Assembly (NCBI RefSeq): GCF_000422565.1
Contig: NZ_KE383877.1
Coordinates: 1 to 64,000, forward strand
Reading direction: 5' to 3'
DNA length: 64,000 nucleotides
Origin: Desulfovibrio aminophilus DSM 12254
GTDB lineage: Bacteria; Desulfobacterota; Desulfovibrionia; Desulfovibrionales; Desulfovibrionaceae
Shown: in pieces, positions 43,045 to 51,047 of the stretch
Layout: each line of letters starts with the position of its first letter
Position numbering within the stretch: the first letter of the stretch is position 1
Program-made: the position numbers and the translations under genes
The notes under the pieces: model-generated
Told to the model about the DNA's origin: nothing
Seen by the model: the letters and a program-made list of their open reading frames with translations, nothing else
The model's database searches: none

Positions 43045-44475
43045 ATGCGGAGGAATCGTTTGGGGTTCGCCGGCCGTCTGGCGGCGATCCTGGCGCTGGC
43101 CGTGCTGCTGGCCGCCTGCGCCGAAAAGAAGGCCCCCGCGCCCAAGGCGGGAGCGGGCCTCGACCCGGCCGAAGCCCGGGCCATCGCCACGGAGGCCTAC
43201 CTCTACGGCTACCCCCTGGTGACGATGGAGATGACCCGCCGGGTCATGACCAACGTGGCCGCGCCGGAAAACGGACACGCGCCCATGAACGAGTTCGCCC
43301 ACGTGCGGCGTTATCCCCCGGCGGGCTTCCGGGACGTGACCATGCCCAACGCCGACACCCTCTACTCCACGGCCTGGCTGGACCTCTCGGCCGGGCCCAT
43401 GGTCCTCTCCCTGCCGGACACCCGCGGCCGCTACTACGTGATGCCCATCCTCTCGGCCTGGACCGGGGTCATCGCCTCGCCCGGGGCGCGCACCACCGGC
43501 ACCGGCCCCCAGACCTACGCCATCACCGGCCCGGACTGGCGGGGCTCCCTGCCGTCGGGCATGAGCGAAATCAAGTCGCCCACGAATCTCGTCTGGATTC
43601 TCGGCCGGACCTCCTGCACCGGTTCGCCCTCGGACTACGAGGCCGCCCACGCGGTCCAGAACAAGTACCTGCTCGTCCCGCTCCCGGCCTGGGGCAAGCC
43701 CGCCCCGCCCGCCGCGCCCGGCCGGGTCGACCCCGCCGTGGACATGAAGACCCCGGTGCGCGACCAGGTGGACGCCCTGCCCGCCGGTCCCTACTTCCGC
43801 CTCCTGGCCAAGCTGTTGCGCGACAACCCGCCCGCGCCCGAGGACGCCCCCCTGTTGGCACGCATGGCCCGCCTGGGCATCGTGCCGGGACAGGACTTCG
43901 ACCTGGGCGCCCTGCCGCCGGAACTGGCCCTGGCCGCCGCCGGAGCGCCCCGGGCCGGACAGGCCCGCATGGCCTCGGCCGCCAAGAGCACGGCCGAAAC
44001 GATCAACGGCTGGTCCGTGGACCTCAAGATGGGCGTCTACGACTCGGACTACGGACGCCGCGCCCTGACGGCCCACCGGGCCCTGGCGGCCAACCTCCCC
44101 CAGGACGCGGTCTACGCCGTGTCCACCGGCTGGTACCGGGGCGAGGGCAAGTACGTCCTGCGCTTCCCATCCGGCCAGCTTCCGCCGGTGAACGCCTTCT
44201 GGTCCCTGACCCTCTATGACGGGGAGTTCTTCTTCGCGGCCAACCCGCTGAACCGCTTCTCCCTCGGCTCGCGCGACGCGCTCAAGCACGACGAGGACGG
44301 CTCCGTGACCATCCACGTGCAGCACGAGTCGCCCGGGCCGGACCGGGAAGCCAACTGGCTGCCCGCGCCCGAGAAGGAATTCAACCTCGTGCTGCGGCTC
44401 TACTGGCCCAAGTCCGCGCCGCCCTCGATCCTGGACGGCTCCTGGGCCCCGCCGGAGATCGAACTGGCGCGGTGA
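43045..44475 (+). CDS. DUF1254/DUF1214 lipoprotein
   Basis: 476 residues: lipobox LLAAC with Cys25, then a DUF1254 domain (YPLVTMEMTRRVMTN, MPNADTLYSTAWLDLSAGP) and a C-terminal DUF1214 domain (VNAFWSLTLYDGEFFF, NPLNRFSLGSRDAL, EFNLVLRLYWPK). Standard two-domain form. Anchored in the envelope; enzymatic role uncertain. ATG after GAGGAGGTGG. Ends in front of a bidirectional terminator. Confidence 0.88.
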   Translation: MRRNRLGFAGRLAAILALAVLLAACAEKKAPAPKAGAGLDPAEARAIATEAYLYGYPLVTMEMTRRVMTNVAAPENGHAPMNEFAHVRRYPPAGFRDVTMPNADTLYSTAWLDLSAGPMVLSLPDTRGRYYVMPILSAWTGVIASPGARTTGTGPQTYAITGPDWRGSLPSGMSEIKSPTNLVWILGRTSCTGSPSDYEAAHAVQNKYLLVPLPAWGKPAPPAAPGRVDPAVDMKTPVRDQVDALPAGPYFRLLAKLLRDNPPAPEDAPLLARMARLGIVPGQDFDLGALPPELALAAAGAPRAGQARMASAAKSTAETINGWSVDLKMGVYDSDYGRRALTAHRALAANLPQDAVYAVSTGWYRGEGKYVLRFPSGQLPPVNAFWSLTLYDGEFFFAANPLNRFSLGSRDALKHDEDGSVTIHVQHESPGPDREANWLPAPEKEFNLVLRLYWPKSAPPSILDGSWAPPEIELAR

Positions 44476-46929: not shown

Positions 46930-48150
46930 TCACCGCCCGCGCGGAATGACGGCCAGACCGGCGACCACGGCCAGCAGCGCCGCCGTGCCGCCCAAGATGA
47001 AGGGCGCGCGCGGGCCGATGACGTCCCAGGCCAGACCGGCGGCCAGGCTTCCGGCCAGGGTCGCCAGGCCCGTGACCATGAGGAAGAAGCCCAGGGCCGC
47101 GCCCCGGCGCTCGGCCGGAATGGTCGAGGCCACCAGGGCCTTGCCCACGCCCTCGGTGCAGCCCATGTACAGGCCGTAGAGCGGGAACAGGCCCCAGATC
47201 CAGCCGGGGCCCGCCAGGGCGAAGCCGAAGTAGACCAGGGCGTAGAGCGTCCAGCCCCCGAGCATCATGCGCCAGCGGCCGAAGCGGTCGCTCAGGACTC
47301 CGGCCGGGTAGGCCGACAGGGCGTAGGTCAGGTTGAAGAGCACGTAGGCGGCCACGGCCTGCACGTCGCTGAAGCCGAGGCTCTTGGCCCGCAGCAGGAG
47401 CAGGGCGTCGGTGCTGTTGGCGAAGGCGAACAGGCCGAGCAGCGTCAGGGCGCGCCAGTATTCCCGGGGCAGGCCGCGCAGGGCCTCGCGCAGCGGGAGA
47501 CGCGGGGCCGGGGTTCCGTCCGCCGCGCGTTCCGGGGCGGCGTCCCGCAGCCGGAAGGTGAGCCAGACCGCCGCCGCGCCGGGCAGGGCCGCCAGGAGGA
47601 AGATGAGCCGGTAGCGGCCGGGCAGCAGGGCCAGCAGACCCAGGGCCAGGAGCACGCCCACGATGGCCCCGGCCGTGTCGAGCATCCGGTGCAGGCCGTA
47701 GGCCCGGCCCGCCATGCCCCTGGGCGCGGCGTCCGCGATCATGGCGTCGCGGGCCGTGGTGCGCAGGCCCTTGCCCGCGCGGTCCAGGAGCCGGGCCGCG
47801 AAGACCACGGGCCAGGAGAAGGCCAGGGCCAGCAGCGGCTTGGACAGGGCGCTCAGGCCGTAGCCGGCCCGCACGTAGGGCGCGCGGCGGCCCAGGCGGT
47901 CGCTGTGCCAGCCCGAGAGGCCCTTCATGACCGAGACCACGGCCTCGGCCACGCCCTCCACCGCGCCCAGGACCACGGCCGGAGCGCCCAGCGCGGCCGT
48001 GAGGAACAGGGGCGCCACGGGATAGATCATCTCCGAGGCCACGTCGGTGAGAAAGCTGACCCAGCCCAGGGTCCAGATCGCCCGGGGCAGGCCCAACCGC
48101 CCGCCCTTCGCGGCTTCCGCCGCAACGCCGCGCGACACGTCGTCCGCCAT
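46930..48150 (-). CDS. MFS transporter under fluoride-riboswitch control
   Basis: 406 residues with twelve hydrophobic segments. LTDVASEMIYPVAPLFL is a hallmark opening, GWHSDRLGRRAPYVRAGYG is motif A, and AARLLDRAGKGLRTTARDAMIA resembles the YNFM/MFS_1 exporter branch. ATG after CGAGGGA. Its leader carries a fluoride aptamer followed by an intrinsic terminator, so it should be induced by fluoride. CrcB/Fluc and EriC-type channels are the usual genes under this class, making an MFS member less expected. The substrate (fluoride itself or a fluoride-linked metabolite) is inference. Confidence 0.83.
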   Translation of the reverse strand: MADDVSRGVAAEAAKGGRLGLPRAIWTLGWVSFLTDVASEMIYPVAPLFLTAALGAPAVVLGAVEGVAEAVVSVMKGLSGWHSDRLGRRAPYVRAGYGLSALSKPLLALAFSWPVVFAARLLDRAGKGLRTTARDAMIADAAPRGMAGRAYGLHRMLDTAGAIVGVLLALGLLALLPGRYRLIFLLAALPGAAAVWLTFRLRDAAPERAADGTPAPRLPLREALRGLPREYWRALTLLGLFAFANSTDALLLLRAKSLGFSDVQAVAAYVLFNLTYALSAYPAGVLSDRFGRWRMMLGGWTLYALVYFGFALAGPGWIWGLFPLYGLYMGCTEGVGKALVASTIPAERRGAALGFFLMVTGLATLAGSLAAGLAWDVIGPRAPFILGGTAALLAVVAGLAVIPRGR

Positions 48151-48172: not shown

Positions 48173-48198
48173 CAAAAAACCACGCCCGGCGGCGTGGT
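48173..48198 (-). terminator. Intrinsic terminator of the fluoride riboswitch
   Basis: Minus strand ACCACGCC-gccg-GGCGTGGT followed by a T6 run, 23 nt before the MFS start. It is placed directly downstream of the aptamer, as for transcriptional attenuation. Confidence 0.85.
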
Positions 48199-48235
48199 CC
48201 GTCTTCCGCACGCACTCCCGCCGCATTCCCCATCC

Positions 48236-48287
48236 GGCAGGAGTCATCGGCATCACGAGCGGTTCAAGGGGGACTCCATCCCCTGCC
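48236..48287 (-). promoter_or_regulatory. Fluoride riboswitch (crcB motif) aptamer
   Basis: Minus strand: GGGGAUGGAGUCCCCC, a short loop, GAACCGC, a variable stem, then GCCGAUGACUCCUGCC. This matches the crcB-motif order GGxGAUG...CC, AAC-CGC, GC-GAUGACxCCU, including the pseudoknot partners. A terminator follows, so fluoride binding should permit read-through. Confidence 0.87.
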
Positions 48288-48292
48288 CCGCC

Positions 48293-48321
48293 CTTCTAGC
48301 CCGGGGCCGGGAGGGGGTCAA
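48293..48321 (-). promoter_or_regulatory. Sigma70 promoter for the fluoride-riboswitch transcript
   Basis: TTGACC (-35, minus strand 48316-48321), 17-nt spacer, TAGAAG (-10, 48293-48298). Start would fall just before the aptamer. Confidence 0.6.
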
Positions 48322-48642
48322 TGGAGGGGGGAGGATTGAACAGGCCCAATTGAGAGACGGGATCGGAAAAAAAACGGCCGGGGGACGACTCTACGACTTA
48401 TTTTGTTTGGAACGGACTCTGTAGAATATATATTAAAATGCCGACACCCGCCCTCTTTGCACCTGCCGACCCTGGTCAGATTAAAACGATCCCGCGCCAG
48501 CCCGCTGAAAGAGGCAGCGGAAATTATCCTTGTATCCAAGAAATCGGGTGTGGTACAAGCCAGCCATTATTTACGATCGCGTTCGCGACCGGGAGAATCT
48601 GGCGTGCGGATCAATCTAATTATTACTCAATGAATTGAAGCG
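48322..48642. other. Gene-free stretch at the left edge of the cassette patch
   Basis: About 320 nt with no convincing gene. GC falls sharply from about 48410 onward. No integrase, attI or complete attC was recognised here, so the left boundary of the cassette array cannot be fixed. Confidence 0.5.
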
Positions 48643-49635
48643 ATGATCCAGTTTCTAGCCGACAACATCGACCAACTCGACCTCGCTCTCGACCAGCTTG
48701 CGATTGCCGATCGAAATTTTGATCGGTTTGCGTTCATGCTCATCGACAACGTCGTGGAGCTGACTCTACACAAATTCGCTCAGGATAAAGCTGGTGAGAA
48801 CGAGATGTGGGGACGCTGGGGGGAGCCCAAGCACGACCAAAAAGTAATTAAAGAAGCTCTGAGTCAGAATTTCGATTGTAAGGTCAAGGCTGCTGGCAAA
48901 CTTGGTCTGTTGAATAAGGCGATTTCCGAGTCAATTCTCAATCTTCACAGCTATAGGAACACTGCCTATCACAAGGGCCTTCGGCACGAAGGAATCCTGC
49001 ATTCTCTTGCATTGTTCTATTTCAGAAACGCTTGTACGTTACTGGCAGCGTATGAGCCTGTGTGGTGGTCATGGAGCAGTTCCGACAAACCTTCCCACCG
49101 TGCCCAAAAATACCTAGGTGATCCCAGGCGTGGCGATTACAGAAAAGTCTTTGAGTTCGCCTATGCCAGGCTTGATAGTGTGGCCGCATCCATGCATGAA
49201 GATCTTGTCGGAGACCTATCCGAAGACCTCTCCAAGACCATCGACTCCATAGACGAAACCATTGACTTCTTGGTTGACGGTGGGCCGAAGAAAAAAAATC
49301 GCGACGACGTAATCATCGATTGTCAGGTATGGCCGTTTGCATTTACAGATGACGCAAAAGCATATGCCAAGGCAAATGGTTGCAAAGAAACAACGGTTGG
49401 CGGATTTCTCGATTGGATTACCAAGAACTATCCCTGGCCGCTGAGGAAGGATCCAGTCTCTGGCTGGCGTAAGCGGCTTGCCACACTCCGGCGCGAGAAA
49501 AATCGCCATAACGTCTTAAAGATATACTGCGATTTCATGCGACAAACGGAGAAGATTCGCGCACAAATTGTGGAGGCAGCTGCACAGCTTGATGCATATA
49601 TACAGCAACAAATCGACGTTGCCCGTGGAAAGTAG
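48643..49635 (+). CDS. Cassette-borne protein with a HEPN-like RX4H motif
   Basis: 330 residues, GC clearly lower than surroundings. The N-terminal half is helical, with HSYRNTAYHKG holding R105-X4-H110, the catalytic signature of HEPN RNases, after a nearby FAFMLIDNVVELTLHK helix. The C-terminal half has VGGFLDWITKNYPW and a late helical segment. No signal peptide. Its stop is 3 nt before an attC-like site, so it is a mobile integron cassette. A toxin or antiphage nuclease role is plausible, not shown. Confidence 0.65.
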   Translation: MIQFLADNIDQLDLALDQLAIADRNFDRFAFMLIDNVVELTLHKFAQDKAGENEMWGRWGEPKHDQKVIKEALSQNFDCKVKAAGKLGLLNKAISESILNLHSYRNTAYHKGLRHEGILHSLALFYFRNACTLLAAYEPVWWSWSSSDKPSHRAQKYLGDPRRGDYRKVFEFAYARLDSVAASMHEDLVGDLSEDLSKTIDSIDETIDFLVDGGPKKKNRDDVIIDCQVWPFAFTDDAKAYAKANGCKETTVGGFLDWITKNYPWPLRKDPVSGWRKRLATLRREKNRHNVLKIYCDFMRQTEKIRAQIVEAAAQLDAYIQQQIDVARGK

Positions 49636-49637
49636 CC

Positions 49638-49701
49638 ATCTAGCAACCGGTTGCAGCGGGCGATCCGCTGCGCGGCCCGCCATTGAACCGGAGCGTTAGC
49701 A
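49638..49701 (+). other. attC recombination site 1
   Basis: ATCTAGC (R'', one base off ATCTAAC), then AACCGGTTGCA, a GCGGGC...GCCCGC stem, TGAACCGG and GTTAGCA (R'). CCGGTTGCA pairs with TGAACCGG leaving one unpaired G, the extrahelical base typical of attC bottom strands. It ends the first cassette. Confidence 0.78.
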
Positions 49702-49721
49702 GGCCAAGACGGAGGTGCGGG

Positions 49722-50180
49722 ATGGAGTACCGAGATGTGGTCAGGGATTTCGCTGAGCGTACGAAGAAGAATCTGGAGACCATAGATCGCCTCCGAGACT
49801 TGGGCGAGGAAGTTTATGAGACTACTCAGCTCATCAACTCCATGCTGGGCCTTCTGGTCTTTCCGCGCGAGGAGTTTGTCGACCGAATCCCGCAGATACC
49901 CTTCGCTGATCTCGCGCGTGCGGGGTGGCCCACGCCAAACGTGCGTAATAGATTCCCTCAAGCTCGTGACCTTCGCCAACTCATTCGGTATTTGAGGAAC
50001 GCCATTGCACATTTCAACCTCGAATTCCTTTCAGACGGGGAACATCAGATCAGCGGTCTCCGCGTCTGGAATACCAGGCCGGGAAGCAGAGTAACGACTT
50101 GGGATGCCGAGTTATCGCTGGATGATCTCCGCAACATTGCTGAGCGTTTCACGAGCCTCCTACTTGCGGAGGCCGTCTAA
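49722..50180 (+). CDS. HEPN-family protein (pEK499_p136-like)
   Basis: 152 residues. RDFAERTKKNLETI, EVYETTQLINSMLGLLVFPRE and IRYLRNAIAHFNLEF (R92-X4-H97) match the HEPN/pEK499_p136 family, predicted RNA-cleaving or RNA-binding. ATG after GGAGGTGCGGG. The TAA stop is embedded in the R'' box of the next attC, the usual cassette geometry. Second HEPN-like gene in tandem cassettes. Confidence 0.78.
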   Translation: MEYRDVVRDFAERTKKNLETIDRLRDLGEEVYETTQLINSMLGLLVFPREEFVDRIPQIPFADLARAGWPTPNVRNRFPQARDLRQLIRYLRNAIAHFNLEFLSDGEHQISGLRVWNTRPGSRVTTWDAELSLDDLRNIAERFTSLLLAEAV

Positions 50181-50266
50181 CAGCCCCCTGCTGCCGACGA
50201 GCGGCGGGGGGTACGGCAGAGTGATGGATTGTGCACCGTTCGCGGCTGAGCGGCATGGCGTTAAGC
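50175..50266 (+). other. attC recombination site 2
   Basis: GTCTAAC (R'') at the stop codon and GTTAAGC (R') at 50260-50266, about 92 bp, with TGCCG...CGGCA arm pairing inside. The R boxes match RYYYAAC/GTTRRRY. Confidence 0.68.
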
Positions 50267-50292
50267 TTTGGATCAATCAACAAGGAGGACGT

Positions 50293-50490
50293 ATGGTTAT
50301 CAAAACGAAGTACAAGGTCGGTGACATCGTACAACTCCGCTCAGGAGGACCAGAAATGACTGTTAAAGAAATTCCAGATAATGATTTGTTCAGCAACTAC
50401 TACATCTGCCAGTGGTTTGCTGGAAAGAAGCTGGCGAGTGGGAACTTCCAAGAAGAATCTTTGGAGCCTGTAAATCTGGAATCTAAATGA
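50293..50490 (+). CDS. DUF2158 small cassette protein
   Basis: 65 residues: KYKVGDIVQLRSGGPEMTVKE and YYICQWFAGKKLASGNFQEESL are the DUF2158 pattern (small beta-barrel-like, common in integron cassettes). ATG after AAGGAGG. Overlaps the next gene by 4 nt, so this cassette carries two genes. Confidence 0.8.
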   Translation: MVIKTKYKVGDIVQLRSGGPEMTVKEIPDNDLFSNYYICQWFAGKKLASGNFQEESLEPVNLESK

Positions 50491-50756
50491 CCACGCTGCA
50501 ATCAGTTATTGAGTGGATGCATGGCAAGATCAGTCGAGACGGCTGCCTTTACCAAGATGATGTTGTTGATCATCTCGTCAAGACCAAGCAAGAAGCACTG
50601 CTTCGTGAGAATGCTGACGGCAACTTGGTCCTCGGAAAGGCGCTATTAGAAGCTTTCCGCAAGGCCACGGCGGATGAAATCGTATGGGTAAAACCAGATT
50701 TCTACTGGCGGCCTCGTGTACGAGAAGATGAACCTGGCCGTGAAGCGCGCGGATGA
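50487..50756 (+). CDS. Hypothetical cassette protein
   Basis: 89 residues, mixed helical: TTLQSVIEWMHGKISRDGCLYQ, LVLGKALLEAFRKATADEIVWV, acidic-basic end. ATGA-coupled to the DUF2158 gene. Stop is 8 nt before a truncated attC. No family recognised; low GC marks foreign origin. Confidence 0.65.
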   Translation: MTTLQSVIEWMHGKISRDGCLYQDDVVDHLVKTKQEALLRENADGNLVLGKALLEAFRKATADEIVWVKPDFYWRPRVREDEPGREARG

Positions 50757-50763
50757 CTCCAAA

Positions 50764-50803
50764 TCCTAACAATTCGTTCAAGTCGATGCCGCTTCGCGGC
50801 TTA
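50764..50803 (+). other. Truncated attC site 3 (right end of array)
   Basis: TCCTAAC-AATTCGTTCAAG-TCGATGCCGCTTCGCGGC-TTAA is a textbook left part of an attC, but the expected L' and GTTAGGA boxes are missing; unrelated sequence follows. Marks where the cassette array was fused to chromosomal DNA. The 240 nt to htpX hold no further feature. Confidence 0.72.
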
Positions 50804-51047
50804 AAATGGGTCTAACCCACAGGCTGCACCACAAACGGCCCAAATGAGGTAAAAACCGCAGAAGTCGGACGGTATATTCCCCAGGGATTTCCGCTAGTTT
50901 TGTGATTGGTGCGCTTCGGGACTCTCCCCTTCGGCACCAGCCGATGCGCTTTTCGTTTTCCCTCCCGCCTAGCTTCCCCCCTCCCTTGACTCCGGCCCCC
51001 GGCTGGCTATCTTTTCCGGGCGTTCCAAAAGACCCGGAGGTCGTTGC

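Follow-up and report, generated by a model that had tools for sequence, protein, structure and literature searches.

The minus-strand leader at positions 48173-48321 of the window, the 64-kb stretch of Desulfovibrio aminophilus DNA analyzed here, is probably a transcription-terminating fluoride ON-switch, and its target an antiporter-like MFS transporter of the group's fluoride-defence regulon. Homology of the aptamer, the presence of a terminator, the order of the genes and the recurrence of the arrangement in relatives are all observed for this locus. The riboswitch itself is of a known class and an ordinary member of it; what is apparently new is a type of fluoride-riboswitch operon with an MFS member.

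A fluoride aptamer and a terminator precede an MFS gene

A cmscan of the whole 64-kb window against Rfam 15 returned one match at the gathering threshold, the Fluoride riboswitch aptamer RF01734 (minus strand, 48292-48231). It scores 44.7 bits for a gathering score of 34 (E 3.8e-9) and covers the model over its full length (positions 1-64). The whole-genome search recovered the same aptamer with an E-value of 4.7e-11. Both strands of the pseudoknot are present, GGAGU at 48277-48273 in the loop of the first stem and ACUCC at 48244-48240 on the 3′ side. A chance match is excluded by the cmscan score together with the recurrence of the riboswitch in the order and phylum samples. An earlier note on this DNA had recognized a crcB-type aptamer without naming the strand and had called for a covariance-model scan; the Rfam match above the gathering score confirms the aptamer and places it on the minus strand.

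Downstream of the aptamer, an intrinsic terminator with its T-rich tail occupies 48200-48167 of the minus strand (GGACCACGCC-GCCG-GGCGUGGUUU), the hairpin proper extending from 48200 to 48177 and being followed by TTTGTTTTCA. Within 130 nt around the aptamer end, this hairpin was recovered in the real sequence and in 0/100 letter shuffles, in agreement with the terminator that had been proposed ahead of the MFS gene. A likely ribosome-binding site, GAGGG at 48163-48159 (minus strand), lies 8 nt upstream of the ATG at 48150, which opens an MFS transporter gene of 406 codons for amino acids (48150-46930, minus strand) with 12 predicted TM helices.

The promoter claimed in the same note was borne out in part. 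A putative sigma-70-type promoter at 48321-48293 on the minus strand consists of TTGACC (48321-48316), a 17-nt spacer and TAGAAG (48298-48293), and agrees with the consensus at 9 of 12 positions; it is absent from the output of a stricter consensus promoter scan because TAGAAG lacks the final T. By its resemblance to the consensus this promoter is plausible but a weak match. The span 48173-48321 given in the note covers the promoter-like hexamers, the aptamer and the terminator.

Predicted switching of the leader

For this leader we infer both fluoride binding and the switching fold, the latter being predicted by energy modelling and pattern search. MFE folding of the free leader (−70.4 kcal/mol) gave an anti-aptamer hairpin together with the terminator. 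The 5′ arm of the predicted hairpin, ACUCCUGCCG (48244-48235, minus strand), includes the 3′ pseudoknot strand; its 3′ arm is CGGCGGGAGU (48223-48214, minus strand), the first part of which is the predicted anti-terminator strand with fluoride bound. The 10-bp complement between the two arms was equalled in 1% of 200 shuffles. When the aptamer was enforced in MFE folding of a transcript ending at 48187, the pairing CGGCGG:CCGCCG was formed.

In the proposed mechanism, the 3′ pseudoknot strand 48244-48240 would be sequestered in the absence of fluoride within the 10-bp hairpin formed with 48223-48214; the terminator 48200-48177 would fold, and transcription would halt ahead of the MFS gene. With Mg-fluoride bound, the pseudoknot would retain 48244-48240, releasing CGGCGG at 48223-48218, which would then pair with CCGCCG at 48192-48187 in the 5′ arm and loop of the terminator. 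As a result, RNA polymerase is proposed to continue into the MFS gene. In cells under fluoride stress the protein would work alongside CrcB, its likeliest role being that of a proton-coupled exporter or antiporter.

The second fluoride leader of the genome, identical to the first at 118 of 173 alignment columns, carries CGGCAGGAGU at the position of CGGCGGGAGU, which replaces a G-U by an A-U pair in the hairpin; it retains this type of anti-aptamer hairpin and a similar terminator. A search of 26 leaders gave the hairpin in 6, including that of G082, which is near-identical to the window leader; the other leaders must switch differently, so the model does not hold in general. In a scan of 25 leaders, 15 had a terminator, including both of the D. 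aminophilus genome, and the other 10, G053 and G005 among them, gave none.

The downstream gene encodes an MFS protein

In Pfam, the protein matched PF07690 (MFS_1) at 167.4 bits, for a cut-off of 33.4; at E 0.001 the only matches were MFS_1 and Sugar_tr, with no CrcB (PF02537) or CLC (PF00654) domain. The first downstream gene is hence an MFS gene, neither crcB nor eriC, as the earlier note had stated. Fourteen NCBIfam matches all fell under their curated cut-offs, so that no NCBIfam family was reached, and Pfam and NCBIfam yield no substrate. The fold matches listed for the AlphaFold2 model (pLDDT 93.4, pTM 0.91) are transporters of the MFS fold and proteins related to them (best Z 41.4); solved folds among them are OxlT, MCT1, MFSD10, NorA and VMAT at 11-21% identity. 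These matches are generic and indicate MFS membership only, and the absence of a family among them carries no evidential weight. In a PDB sequence search to E 1, NorA was the only solved protein matched, weakly (best E 0.04).

Motif A is present as G80-WHS-DRLGRR. Motif C, defined together with motif A in an excerpt of PMC10604125 as G-x8-G-x3-G-P in TM5, is represented by G152, G161 and G165, with V166 at the proline position. The pattern Gx8Gx3G occurs in 70 of 74 aligned proteins, and the glycines with the proline in 36 of the 74. Motif A and the three motif C glycines, in a protein without the proline, are sequence hints of antiport without being proof of it; for this protein antiport, like any substrate, is what we infer. 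The 12-TM fold, motif A and a partial motif C are shared with the DHA-type MFS proton antiporters (NorA, MdfA, Tet pumps), from which the window protein differs in having no NCBIfam family at the curated cut-off.

The next gene on the minus strand has its own promoter-like site at 46799-46771, and the MFS gene may therefore be transcribed alone. Near the MFS gene lie a ROS/MUCR-type regulator (PF05443, 44543-44992) and a DUF1254/DUF1214 protein (43045-44475). On the other side, a low-GC stretch at 48500-51000 (GC 0.49-0.54, against 0.62-0.78 around it) abuts the riboswitch upstream; it encodes a HEPN pEK499_p136 protein, a DUF6953 protein and a 330-aa protein without Pfam match, and was probably acquired by transfer.

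A second fluoride operon in the same genome

The D. aminophilus genome comprises 3.42 Mb in 25 contigs (completeness 99.98) and contains two fluoride riboswitches. The second (L008, G000:C2:148000-157000) heads the run AAA ATPase-CrcB-DUF190/CBS-phosphatase-enolase; just upstream of it are genes for a PiT phosphate transporter, MFS2 and a ChrB_N protein, MFS2 being a distant homologue of the window MFS (35% over 160 residues). Two CrcB genes, one of them in the second riboswitch operon, and one CLC gene (PF00654, contig C11) were found in the genome. The MFS protein is therefore not the only conceivable exporter, and the idea that it is the lone fluoride exporter of this organism is ruled out by these three genes.

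The linkage recurs in the order and in close relatives

The order sample comprised 150 genomes, 31 with a riboswitch above the cut-off and 21 with an MFS match of E 1e-40 or better. In 10 of these 21, an orthologue or near relative of the MFS gene is preceded on the same strand by a riboswitch, at a distance of 80 bp to about 1 kb: D. aminophilus itself, G053, G014, G075, G082, G005, G036, G097, G099 and G065, the last three with an MFS of 38-40% identity. crcB belongs to the same run as the MFS gene in seven of the ten. The order is riboswitch-MFS-crcB-DUF190/CBS in G053, G014 and G005; in G036 the riboswitch is followed by an unnamed stretch and then by MFS-AAA-crcB-DUF190/CBS; in G097, G099 and G065 crcB sits between the riboswitch and the MFS gene. 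No crcB match was found beside the MFS gene in D. aminophilus, G075 and G082. CrcB is encoded in all ten genomes with the linkage (D. aminophilus and 9/9 others). Furthermore, MFS2-type genes stand directly downstream of riboswitches in G092, G113 and G142.

A wider public collection gave 128 relatives, of which 80 were kept. Seven of the 80 have a riboswitch upstream of the MFS gene, all among the 13 closest; four are the same contigs as those of G075, G005, G036 and G053, and three are new (L106, L107 and L108). Both L106 and L107 show the run riboswitch-MFS-AAA-crcB-DUF190/CBS-phosphatase-enolase, which matches the second D. aminophilus operon except that the MFS gene is placed at its head. 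The simplest reading is that the MFS gene of the window genome was separated from, or never joined to, the second crcB operon. The custom covariance model used for the relatives took the pseudoknot-side pairing as structure; a check of it with Rfam gave the same seven linked sites in the first 50 of the 80 records, and no linked site in the remaining 30 loci, nor in L113, L137 and L140, where the riboswitches of the genome lie at other loci.

The leader of G082, a genome of the same genus, is identical to the window leader at 164 of 167 positions. Its MFS gene (L080, contig C40) is interrupted: its two fragments are in different reading frames and do not cover the whole protein, which reflects either a decayed gene or an assembly error.

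The linkage extends across the phylum

In a phylum sample of 395 genomes, 54 among the matches listed carry both the riboswitch and the MFS family, at most four MFS candidates having been scored per genome. In 14 of the 54, again among the matches listed, the MFS gene lies at most 4 kb downstream of the riboswitch on the same strand, and 12 of these 14 genomes lie outside the Desulfovibrionales. Adding D. aminophilus, G005 and G036, with riboswitches taken from the order sample, gives 17 of 57, of which 14 of 54 is the fairer figure. The number expected by chance is about 0.04 genomes versus 14 observed, for an assumed mean genome of 3.3 Mb, and 0.10 if the mean is 1.5 Mb. Two more genomes have the pair within 6 kb, otherwise placed (G445 on opposite strands, G506 with the MFS gene upstream).

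The order riboswitch-NapA-UspA-MFS was found in G316, G216, G515, G298 and G233, with an extra gene before the MFS gene in G233, and the shorter riboswitch-NapA-MFS in G215. A GTPase, NapA, UspA and then MFS2 follow the riboswitch in G299; a single other gene separates riboswitch and MFS gene in G553 and G502, and crcB and DUF190 separate them in G289. From its recurrent linkage in the order and in the phylum, the MFS gene is therefore a recurrent member of fluoride operons and not a lone curiosity.

How the linkage is distributed was followed on a tree of 92 proteins, a quick build with long-branch warnings, into which 55 of the 80 wider-collection loci entered; L131 (internal stop), L151, L163 and L176 (broken or partial matches) and the linked G082 copy were left out. 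The label "riboswitch upstream" required 14 changes (12 without the rows of unknown state) versus 22.1 in shuffles, and at least 11 changes are forced by strongly supported branches. Over the tree, the riboswitch-MFS link has arisen or disappeared repeatedly; its distribution is nonetheless clustered.

In the tree rows nearest to the window protein (L101, G094 and G117), the MFS gene is not accompanied by a riboswitch. This could point to an accidental adjacency, a leader having been moved or copied before an unrelated multidrug pump, and the resemblance of the two leaders of the genome (118/173 columns) as well as the low-GC island abutting the leader upstream would fit such an event. We consider it very improbable, as the same linkage is found in nine other genomes of the order and in further genomes of the phylum, and the G082 leader is identical at 164/167 positions.

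Relation to known fluoride-riboswitch systems

The full-length match, the pseudoknot strands and the terminator-type platform are shared with the fluoride riboswitch class (crcB motif, RF01734). The first gene downstream of the window aptamer is an MFS gene, unlike the targets listed in excerpts of PMC2864571, PMC11139923 and PMC5533749, which comprise crcB, eriC/CLC-F, Na+/H+ antiporters, pyrophosphatase, enolase, uspA, formate hydrogen lyase, mutS and others. The riboswitch-controlled fluoride operon of Enterobacter cloacae FRM reads ppaC-uspA-eno-gpmA-crcB-orf5249 (excerpt of PMC5533749). The MFS genes of the relatives likewise run with crcB, enolase or UspA behind a riboswitch; the FRM operon, however, has no MFS gene, and the window MFS gene is separate, under a riboswitch of its own. 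CLC-F and Fluc/CrcB exporters are also membrane transport proteins under fluoride riboswitches, but the window protein, MFS_1 by Pfam and by fold, is in neither family.

No MFS under fluoride control is named in the excerpts of PMC2864571, PMC11139923, PMC7266159, PMC9495176, PMC11477304 and PMC5533749, and no fluoride riboswitch-MFS pairing appears in those of PMC12595759, PMC13344493 and PMC9120033. Apart from the 2012 survey by Baker et al., whose target genes lay outside the search, the literature searched gave no pairing of fluoride riboswitches with MFS genes, and it gave no Desulfovibrio fitness data under fluoride. Known bacterial fluoride export is assigned to two families, Fluc/CrcB and CLC-F, in an excerpt of PMC11139923. 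The MFS family is a third transporter family recurring behind fluoride riboswitches, in a few cases where neither CrcB nor CLC is matched, and its recurrence defines a set of candidates for a so far unrecognized fluoride exporter or component of fluoride defence.

Does the MFS protein move fluoride?

The MFS gene probably helps cells to survive fluoride, because the riboswitch is genuine and the same pump occurs in fluoride-defence operons of relatives. Of the earlier suggestion of a fluoride-responsive exporter of a new kind, the part that stands is the riboswitch having an MFS gene as its first target, in an arrangement repeated in relatives. An exporter of a new kind is no more than possible, given two CrcB genes and a CLC gene in this genome and crcB in 7/10 linked runs.

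We think it rather likely that the substrate is a solute or cation other than fluoride, transported for pH or ion balance, or a metabolite accumulating under fluoride; fluoride itself is an unlikely substrate. On balance we favour, with some reserve, an accessory function, the protein being a cation/H+ antiporter or a metabolite exporter that would restore pH or clear the products of fluoride-inhibited glycolysis. Its neighbours in relatives are accessories of the fluoride regulon, namely NapA (PF00999), UspA (PF00582), enolase and the PiT phosphate transporter. In an excerpt of PMC11139923, Na+/H+ antiporters are the next commonest riboswitch-associated class after exporters, and phosphate transport and enolase are tied to fluoride; Na+/H+ antiport is reported for the MFS protein MdrP in an excerpt of PMC6055358. 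Against this reading, no substrate-specific feature is seen in the protein, and its fold matches are generic (11-21% identity).

The position of the gene directly downstream of a fluoride riboswitch and the recurrence of this linkage would also suit a fluoride exporter, for instance an F−/H+ antiporter acting in parallel to or instead of CrcB/CLC-F, which we regard as doubtful. We know of no MFS protein that exports fluoride. In four genomes, G215, G502, G233 and G299, a member of the MFS family is linked to a riboswitch and no PF02537 or PF00654 match is present; the member in G299 is of the MFS2 type and that in G233 is cut by a contig end. The completeness of these genomes is 97-100%, and the contamination of G502 is 6%. 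Furthermore, the MFS family is present in 19 of 21 genomes without CrcB and CLC versus 31 of 59 with at least one of them (Fisher p 0.0017, uncorrected for kinship). These 80 riboswitch-bearing genomes were chosen regardless of MFS, as the first in list order with completeness of at least 95, contamination of at most 3 and a riboswitch E-value of 2.1e-8 or better, and they exclude genomes already in the earlier CrcB/CLC sets.

Several observations argue against export of fluoride by this protein. CrcB is encoded in all 10 linked genomes of the order, in the same run in 7 of them. Riboswitch regions were compared in 19 of the 21 genomes that lack both exporters, G206 and G420 being left out; each genome contributed one region, some genomes having further riboswitches, and the L223 and L230 regions stop within 1.6 kb, where the contig or the fetched stretch ends. 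The first gene is NapA in 6 regions and a dynamin-like GTPase in 12; only the region of G441 holds this MFS family, in the MFS2 type. There is accordingly no support for the MFS protein as the usual replacement in genomes lacking CrcB and CLC, since 18 of the 19 regions begin with NapA or the GTPase. Moreover, NapA stands behind the same riboswitch in G215, G233 and G299, and may therefore be the exporter there. We accordingly give little credence to the broader proposal that the MFS family would be a third class of fluoride exporter (F−/H+ antiport), riboswitch-induced across the phylum, backing up CrcB in the Desulfovibrionales and, together with NapA-type antiporters, replacing CrcB in some lineages without CrcB/CLC.

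Of the 80 riboswitch-bearing genomes of completeness at least 95, 21 have no CrcB or CLC match. The 12 regions that begin with a dynamin-like GTPase are L222, L223 and L228-L237; the GTPases are 31-100% identical to the copy in L229 (PF00350), and such a protein is unexpected in a fluoride regulon. A prenyltransferase-like alpha-alpha toroid protein (PF00432) is encoded beside the fluoride riboswitch of L208 (2036-2824), and its relatives lie beside riboswitches in L209, L213, L218, L221, L229, L231 and L236.
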